NCBI RefSeq assembly: GCF_004402495.1
Contig: NZ_SOFH01000017.1
Location: 62,001-126,000 of the forward strand
Direction of reading: 5' to 3'
Length of the DNA: 64,000 nucleotides
From: Cryobacterium sp. HLT2-28
GTDB lineage: Bacteria > Actinomycetota > Actinomycetes > Actinomycetales > Microbacteriaceae
Shown: piece by piece, positions 8,139-9,752 of the stretch
How positions within the stretch are numbered: the first letter of the stretch is position 1
How the letters are laid out: each line of letters starts with the position of its first letter
Notes under the pieces: model-generated
The model's input: only the letters and a program-made list of their open reading frames with translations
The model's database searches: none
What the model was told of the DNA's origin: nothing
Program-made: the position numbers and the translations under genes

Positions 8139-8387
8139 CTAGAGACTGACGTACGAGCCGGCGATCATGGAGGCGGCCTTGGTGCCGCTCACGTAGTTTC
8201 CGCGCAGGTCGCGTCCGGAACCGACAGCACGGGATGTCGTCACATAGCTTCCGACCGCGGAGGCCCGGGGCAATCGAGTCGTGACGTAGGTGCCCTCTTC
8301 CTGGGGAGCGAGTCGGGGAGCAGGCCTTTCAGTCTCGCGGGACGTCTCAAAGTCGGTGGAGAGGTCGAGTTCGCTGGTGATCGTCAT
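8139..8387 (-). CDS. Unrecognised 82-residue protein with four G-x-Y-V repeats
   Basis: I do not recognise this family. The protein opens MTITSELDLSTDFETSRETE, has a Pro/Arg-rich linker, then carries four short repeats centred on Tyr34, Tyr48, Tyr65 and Tyr79: GTYVTTR, GSYVTTS, GNYVSGT and the C-terminal GSYVSL. The spacing is 14, 17 and 14 residues. There are no Cys, His or Trp residues, no signal peptide and no membrane segment. The ATG at 8387 follows AAAAGGAC. It lies 127 bases downstream of a furA-type regulator on the same strand, where katG would sit in mycobacteria. A link to peroxide or iron response is therefore possible but unproven. It could be a modified peptide precursor, a scaffold or a degradation-tag substrate. 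Confidence 0.65.
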   Translation of the reverse strand: MTITSELDLSTDFETSRETERPAPRLAPQEEGTYVTTRLPRASAVGSYVTTSRAVGSGRDLRGNYVSGTKAASMIAGSYVSL

Positions 8388-8514
8388 GGTGCAGTCCTTT
8401 TGTTGATTGAGGGATTGGTGGTGGGTAGTGGCGCGCCGAAGACATCCGGACAGCTCCCTGCACGCACTCAGGTCAGAGTTCGCATGCGCTGGGGGCGTTG
8501 CTGCCGGAGTGTTG

Positions 8515-8976
8515 CTAGCTGGCCGCGCCCTCGATCGCGATCTGGCTCCGGCAGGCTCCGCAGAGTCCGGTAAAGGTGACCTCCGCAGCGAGAACCGTAA
8601 AGCCAGAGGTGTCGGACGGGGTGAGGCACGGGGCCGCTCCGATGACGCAGTCGACATCTTTCAGGTCCCCGCAGCGCACGCAGAGAATGTGGTGGTGATT
8701 GTCACCGACACGGTACTCAAACCGTGCGGGTGAGCCGGCGGGGTCAACGCGACGCACAAGACCCGCGGAGGTGAATGCAGCCAGAACTCCGTACACGGCT
8801 TGCACCGAAGTGCCCGGCAGCTCGGGGCGCACACTCGCGAACACTTCATACGCGCTGGAGTGCGGCGCACTCTGCAGTGTCTTCAGGACGGCCAGTCGTG
8901 GAGCGGTGACTTTCAGCCCAGCCGCTCGCACCGCGTCGGCCAGGCTGGCCGAACCGAGGGAATCTGAATGCGTCAT
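8515..8976 (-). CDS. furA: Fur-family transcriptional regulator, FurA/PerR type
   Basis: This 153-residue regulator has an N-terminal winged helix (about 12-80, GLKVTAPRLAVLKTL) and a metal-binding dimerisation domain. Metal-ligand signatures are GDNHHHILC (His94-His96) and the structural zinc pairs Cys99-x2-Cys102 and Cys139-x2-Cys142. The DVDC..GAAPCLTPSD..GF segment resembles mycobacterial FurA, the redox-sensing repressor linked to katG. No catalase gene follows here; the next gene encodes the G-x-Y-V repeat protein. A perfect dyad overlaps its own promoter (8998-9012), so autoregulation is likely. Confidence 0.9.
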   Translation of the reverse strand: MTHSDSLGSASLADAVRAAGLKVTAPRLAVLKTLQSAPHSSAYEVFASVRPELPGTSVQAVYGVLAAFTSAGLVRRVDPAGSPARFEYRVGDNHHHILCVRCGDLKDVDCVIGAAPCLTPSDTSGFTVLAAEVTFTGLCGACRSQIAIEGAAS

Positions 8977-8997
8977 TTCGATAACACTACAGGTTGT

Positions 8998-9012
8998 TTT
9001 GATAATATCAAA
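8998..9012 (-). promoter_or_regulatory. Fur-type operator overlapping the furA promoter
   Basis: TTTGATAATATCAAA is a perfect palindrome (7-bp arms, 1-base centre), AT-rich in a GC-rich background. It lies 22-36 bases upstream of the furA ATG. Read on the minus strand it contains a TATTAT -10-like hexamer, so bound repressor would cover the promoter. Confidence 0.7.
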
Positions 9013-9203
9013 TCTAGTCGGTGATCCGGTGCCTCGTGCCGGTTGGGTCTACCCTGCCAACGGTGCCGCTCAGGCAGCGCACAGGCGGGAATTCCCGCCC
9101 TCGCGGGTGGATATCCCGTAGACGCGTCGGTGACGACGGAGATCCTGGTCGAAGACTTGCCCCAGCCCGGTTGAGCGAATCGCACACGCGGTGGTCCTGG
9201 AGC

Positions 9204-9479
9204 GTCGTCGATCTCCTCGTCAACAACGCGGGGAATGTGCGCGCGGGGAGGCTTGAGTTGAGATGCGGGTGTCCACTCGATGATCGATCTTGATCTCACC
9301 GCCCCTATCCTGTTGACCAAGACCCTGTTATCCACGCTCCTTCGGAATTGGGAGGGGCGCGGCAGCATCCTCTTGAACGTTTCCAGTGGGATTGCGCTCG
9401 TCGGATGCCGTTCTACGCGATCTATGCGGCAACGAAGTCGGGCATCGCGCAGTTTGGCGAGTCGCTTCGAGACATCCGG
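9204..9479 (+). pseudogene. Fragmented short-chain dehydrogenase/reductase gene
   Basis: Three consecutive pieces of one SDR lie in three reading frames: VVDLLVNNAGNVRAGRLEL (from about 9204), then MIDLDLTAPILLTK...GSILLNVSSGIALVG (from 9280), then MPFYAIYAATKSGIAQFGES (from about 9408). They hold the NNAG motif, the catalytic Ser region and the YxxxK catalytic pair in the right order. At least two frameshifts are therefore needed, and both the Rossmann start and the C-terminus are missing. The fragment ends where an antisense photolyase fragment begins. Confidence 0.8.
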
Positions 9480-9752
9480 TGCCGGACCTGCGCCCGCGTT
9501 CCAGACCTCCCGCAACGACAGCAACCCGTGGCGGATGTAGGGCGACAGCCGGGACGCACCGCAAGCCGATTCCGGAAGCACCTGGTTGCGCGTCGCGGCA
9601 TACCCTGCCACGTCGAACGCGTTGAGCGCAGCATCCGCAACGGTTTGGCCACCCCGGATGTCGGGACTCGCCCGGACGCGATCACTCACGGGGTGCGACA
9701 GGTAGCGTTCGACAACGGCCTCCGGCGAGATCCCGGCAAGGGAGATGATCAC
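9468..9752 (-). pseudogene. Truncated deoxyribodipyrimidine photolyase/cryptochrome gene
   Basis: The minus-strand frame gives YLSHPVSDRVR, IRGGQTVADAALNAF, GYAATRNQVLPE and SRLSPYIRHGLLSLREVW. This matches the start of the FAD-binding domain of photolyases, which use light to split pyrimidine dimers. The homology stops abruptly at about 9468. The remaining FAD-binding helices and the N-terminal antenna domain are absent, and the frame runs on through antisense SDR sequence. It is a relic, apparently joined to the SDR relic by a rearrangement. Confidence 0.75.

Follow-up and report, generated by a model that had tools for sequence, protein, structure and literature searches.

A small G-x-Y-V repeat protein predicted to share FurA-type control with catalase

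Actinobacterial FurA regulons have so far been described around catalases and catalase-peroxidases. The closest described systems are the furA-katG, furA-catC and furS-cpeB operons of Mycobacterium and Streptomyces, which belong to FurA group A (PMC2464607). The mycobacterial FurA box has the form TCTTGACT-N-ATTCCAGA (PMC4218801; also PMC4319475). The locus presented here lies in a window of 64,000 nucleotides, the whole stretch of DNA analysed, and shares with these operons a group A-like Fur encoded first, a putatively autoregulatory operator before fur and one downstream effector. The effector of the known operons is a haem enzyme, whereas that of the present locus is a repeat protein of 80-100 amino acids, here termed the GxYV protein; catalase is a second, parallel target in several of the genomes possessing it. 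This small protein has few Cys, His and Trp residues; its gene lies under the operator of this type, and several genomes contain no predicted target besides it or just one other.

The window's Fur (P0002) matched the Pfam family FUR with 71.5 bits (gathering score 23.1). It keeps the HHHxxCxxC motif as NHHHILCVRC and the C-terminal CxxC as CGAC, and both are conserved across the Fur set. PerR of B. subtilis (PDB 2fe3), although a distant sequence, gave a near full-length match (E 1.3e-12). The HxH motif and both CxxC motifs of PerR are kept in the window's Fur. At the positions which we take to correspond to D104 and D85 of PerR, Asp and Glu were found, respectively. The operator of the window is of the FurA type and differs from the PerR box TTATAATnATTATAA. 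The regulator is of a known kind, and the family of its GxYV effector appears to be undescribed. The gene downstream of fur encodes the GxYV protein and not a catalase, so that the locus departs from the furA-katG/katA arrangement.

Upstream of fur, TTTGATAATATCAAA at 8998-9012 forms a perfect 7-1-7 dyad, and no second site was present in the 3.7 Mb genome when up to two mismatches were allowed. It is placed as expected for an autoregulatory FurA box, just outside the stretch 8139-8976 covered by the initial annotation. That annotation had proposed a FurA-type regulator with a perfect Fur-type dyad in its promoter, and both readings were confirmed, the former by the Pfam match and the latter by this site. 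The core of the operator, TTTTGA-N5-TCAAAA, precedes fur both in the GxYV pairs and at most fur-katA loci, and its layout is that of the mycobacterial FurA box (PMC4218801). In the measured fur-GxYV pairs, the operator lies 19-21 nt upstream of fur. The gaps between fur and the GxYV gene of linked pairs contain no operator, and within 400 nt upstream of the window's GxYV gene the best score was 5 mismatches. All of these sites are sequence matches and thus predicted sites; they make FurA-type control of fur together with the GxYV gene very probable. A conserved RNA hairpin was suspected in the gap of the window but was dropped, as the fold was ordinary (z-score -0.42). On the other side, a decayed short-chain dehydrogenase gene adjoins the fur promoter (VNNAG, LLNVSSG and YAATKSG in different frames; window 9200-9500, +).

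Table 1. Features of the fur-GxYV locus in the window.
Feature	Position	Strand	Basis
GxYV-repeat protein gene	8139..8387	-	82 aa + stop; translation, dN<dS versus relatives, family by motif search
Repeat 1 GTYVT, residues 32-36	8280..8294	-	Translation and motif search
Repeat 2 GSYVT, residues 46-50	8238..8252	-	Translation and motif search
Repeat 3 GNYVS, residues 63-67	8187..8201	-	Translation and motif search
Repeat 4 GSYVS, residues 77-81, C-terminus	8145..8159	-	Translation and motif search
Shine-Dalgarno AAAGGA, 7 nt 5' of the GxYV ATG	8395..8400	-	Direct reading of the sequence
fur-GxYV gap, 127 nt	8388..8514	-	Without own Fur operator; RNA fold ordinary
FurA-type regulator, 153 aa	8515..8976	-	Pfam FUR (E 8.8e-20), PerR/Fur structures, tree
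Predicted FurA operator TTTTGATAATATCAAAT, 20 nt before fur	8997..9013	.	Operator scans; layout of the mycobacterial FurA box

The four G[TSN]YV[TS] repeats and the absence of Cys, His and Trp, both noted initially for the 82-aa product, were recovered by translation of 8139-8387 (-). The repeats follow each other at distances of 14, 17 and 14 residues, and a single Leu separates the last motif from the stop codon. When the composition of the protein was shuffled, two or more such motifs occurred in 0 of 200,000 shuffles.

Relatives were searched by a DNA scan for two or three spaced G-x-Y-V-[ST] codon motifs, as BLAST-type searches miss them because only the motif is conserved; a single-sequence search of 100 relatives gave chance-level matches only. 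With the reversed pattern as control, almost no matches were obtained in the two family-level scans. Of 300 genomes from the window's family, 5 yielded members, as did 20 of the 245 genomes scanned from another family in that order. Two further members were reached via their Fur; these counts depend on the motif pattern and are lower bounds. The members comprise 17 fur-GxYV pairs in 16 genomes, distributed over the two families, as well as 12 GxYV genes away from fur. Outside the order, 1 of about 355 genomes in a class-wide sample matched the pattern, and this match looks unrelated. No relative was found in plasmids and phages. Further matches were rejected: one is a chance match out of frame inside dnaE (L021, from the contig search), six are unrelated (L026, L028, L035-L037, L083), and those in G951 and G017 look like unrelated tandem repeats or chance. 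Within the window's genus, the motif search detected the gene in 1 of 57 genomes, that of the window itself, and because of this patchy occurrence the GxYV gene is dispensable.

The family is characterized by proteins of 78-108 amino acids with three to four G-x-Y-V-[ST] motifs 13-20 residues apart and by a Fur-type operator upstream of the GxYV gene or of a co-directional fur. By the pattern used, 19 of 25 members have four repeats and 6 have three, so the variation in repeat number for which a survey had been suggested is almost lacking. The conservation of the furA-GxYV pair in relatives, the other subject of that survey, is documented by the 17 pairs, and the initial reading withstands this check of its own. 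Motif spacing is mostly 14-17, with 14 in 34 of 69 cases and 17-18 in 20 of 69. Within the motif, Tyr, Gly and Val are conserved without exception or almost so, and the spacers vary. Almost all Tyr residues of the family (105 of 116) lie inside the motif. The N-terminal blocks are conserved within subgroups (e.g. MTxTxE[IL][DN][IL]S or [HP]xIRF[FL]). In all pairs distant enough to tell, dS exceeded dN (e.g. dS 1.24 versus dN 0.27; for the window and L031, dS 1.09 and dN 0.51). This coding selection indicates that the frame is translated, which the initial annotation had named as a point on which its reading could fail.

Searches of Pfam, NCBIfam and PDB sequences revealed no relative of the GxYV protein, in agreement with the initial statement that no family was recognised, and no paper with the motif letters or a description of the protein was found in the literature. 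Neither ordinary homology searches nor the current family libraries reveal the gene, and the present case illustrates that searching by operator plus motif can define a small-protein family. For two members, AlphaFold2 predicted no secondary structure (pLDDT 53 and 55, pTM 0.13), which supports disorder without proving it, as the alignments were shallow (19-25 divergent rows). A hydrophobic segment for export or membrane insertion was not found. Disordered proteins with Tyr repeats, such as resilin- or FUS-like proteins, likewise have regularly spaced Tyr flanked by Gly or Ser in an unfolded chain; this is an analogy only, since the GxYV protein has merely four motifs and no sequence homology to them was found.

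Beside fur, no gene was consistently linked to the GxYV gene, and only fur recurs widely in the neighbourhoods. The initial annotation had suggested a precursor, scaffold or sensor peptide. The neighbourhoods bear on the first of these, a precursor from whose four core repeats a ribosomally synthesised and modified peptide would arise. The repeated core-like motif and the N-terminal blocks conserved within subgroups would suit a precursor, but no maturation, protease or export gene is shared among the neighbourhoods, there is no common leader, the repeat number is nearly fixed, and copies move without their neighbours yet keep the operator. A precursor function seems improbable on these grounds. 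Individual neighbourhoods show other associations. A conserved pair encoding a small Cys-containing membrane-like protein and a CueP-like lipoprotein, which is presumably copper-related, lies downstream of fur-GxYV in three loci (L052 7382-8525, L122, L123). Two fur-GxYV pairs (L031, L117), belonging to different families, are located within a few kb of rhamnose catabolism-like (mutarotase-like) genes.

All 12 GxYV genes away from fur have an operator-like dyad upstream (≤1 mismatch in five, 2 in three and 3 in four), so that some of these sites, those with 3 mismatches, are weak. In random 400-nt control windows, sites with ≤1 mismatch were found in 0 of 4000, with 2 mismatches in 0.8% and with 3 mismatches in 4.6%. 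For two of the 12 genes, L129 and L095, the scan covered 900 nt and placed the sites at 180 and 54 nt. In unlinked genes, the outer operator bases (TTA..TAA or GTTG..) resemble those of the katA operators in the same genomes (G663, G680, G940, G389), and those of the fur-linked operators are mostly GTTG..CAAC. This pattern would fit unlinked copies having switched from their own Fur to the Fur of catalase.

The initial annotation had placed the repeat protein in the position of a catalase. This holds for the operon and fails for the cell, since katA is retained elsewhere in this genome, directly behind a second fur with an operator of that type. By pattern search with at most 1 mismatch, the window's genome contains two operator sites, namely that of the fur-GxYV pair in the window and that of the second fur with katA. 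Likewise, G331 has two sites (fur-GxYV and fur-katA) and G680 has two (unlinked GxYV and fur-katA), and in G389, G828, G918 and G369 the single site is the one at GxYV. In G184, katA has its own operator and a 2-mismatch copy precedes fur-GxYV; in G233, a second site precedes a fur with a katG-like gene downstream. A monofunctional catalase was kept in 15 of the 16 GxYV genomes searched. By their predicted operators, the GxYV gene and catalase are co-regulated, parallel targets. The second FurA paralogue of the window's genome stands directly before katA (L113 3933-6061, G000:C24) with the operator TTATTTTGAGCAATTCAAAATAA; its outer bases differ from those of the window operator, and the two Fur proteins may be insulated from each other. 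The katA loci L155 and L156 (G783, G608) have a fur upstream and no recognisable FurA operator (best 4 mismatches), and the fur-GxYV operators of these two genomes are strong despite this.

Since the GxYV gene and catalase appear to have a peroxide-type repressor in common throughout many related bacteria, the protein looks like an undescribed part of their oxidative-stress response; beyond co-regulation, a role towards peroxide would follow from the known biology of FurA. By analogy with that biology, FurA would bind TTTTGA-N5-TCAAAA over the fur promoter and thereby repress both fur and the GxYV gene. Once FurA is oxidised by peroxide or loses its metal, both genes would be released, and the paralogous fur-katA operon would release catalase at the same time. 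The product would be a small, soluble and probably disordered cytosolic protein whose working parts are the four spaced G-[STN]-Y-V-[TS] segments, in which Tyr would be the decisive residue and possibly redox-reactive. The proposal as a whole, a FurA-autoregulated operon with a disordered multivalent Tyr-motif product, has in our judgement about an even chance of being correct; the patchy occurrence of the gene, the lack of a consistently linked partner gene other than fur and the weak operators of some unlinked copies count against it.

The composition of the family (Tyr 4.9%, Cys 0.2%, Trp 0.1% and 13 internal Met in 2368 residues) could point to a sacrificial or cross-linking antioxidant, in which Tyr takes up oxidising equivalents as tyrosyl radical or dityrosine and the protein is consumed or polymerised as a buffer. 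Co-regulation with catalase and the predicted unfolded chain would suit such a function. However, a protein contains no more than about four Tyr, the conservation of Gly, Val and Thr/Ser around them would be superfluous for plain scavenging, and low Cys and Trp contents are also usual in disordered proteins, and we regard a scavenger as unlikely. The same four conserved Tyr might serve as tyrosinate ligands for Fe(III), Mn or haem, so that the protein feeds or protects catalase or metal pools. Metal- and redox-dependent control of the FurA type and the haem enzyme in the same regulon are in line with this idea, but conserved His, Cys or acidic residues near the Tyr are missing and no fold is predicted, which makes a metal or haem binder very improbable. 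A docking or substrate peptide is favoured instead, because a disordered chain with fixed Gly, Tyr, Val and Thr/Ser and drifting spacers resembles multivalent motifs or repeated modification sites. It is possible, and no more than tentatively proposed, that the four motifs are multivalent short linear motifs which dock on, or are modified by, a partner of the catalase or peroxide response, with Tyr being decisive. The broader reading is somewhat better placed, if still short of even confidence: the FurA regulon may include a new class of effectors, represented by the GxYV protein. Such a disordered peptide with multivalent Tyr motifs would act alongside catalase in the defence against peroxide, for instance through controlled oxidation of its Tyr or by docking to an enzyme of the peroxide response, and would pass from one Fur paralogue to another without ever leaving Fur control. 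The system can easily be tested, because its operator is known and so are the probable inducer and phenotype.

In the Fur tree, most of the proteins linked to GxYV belong to two supported groups, separate from the catalase-linked ones. This grouping would suit a feedback partner, in which case the GxYV protein would bind FurA and either keep it off DNA or restore repression, and so would the finding that the GxYV gene commonly accompanies fur and has a Fur-type operator in every case. The 12 genes away from any fur argue against such a partnership, as does one Fur of the GxYV clade without an adjacent GxYV gene (L056, G242), and a feedback function is hardly probable. At L056, a carboxylate-amine ligase-like gene faces fur instead. 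As to the origin of the pair, the window's Fur clusters with Fur proteins of other genera, and the second Fur of the same genome clusters with katA-linked Fur of its own genus. The local G+C content is 0.62-0.64 at the locus versus about 0.70 on both sides. The tree position, the patchy occurrence in the genus and the lower local G+C content suggest that the fur-GxYV pair was acquired horizontally. Two genomes carry two GxYV genes each (L124 and L125 in G866, L128 and L129 in G940), and in G866 each of them has its own fur.
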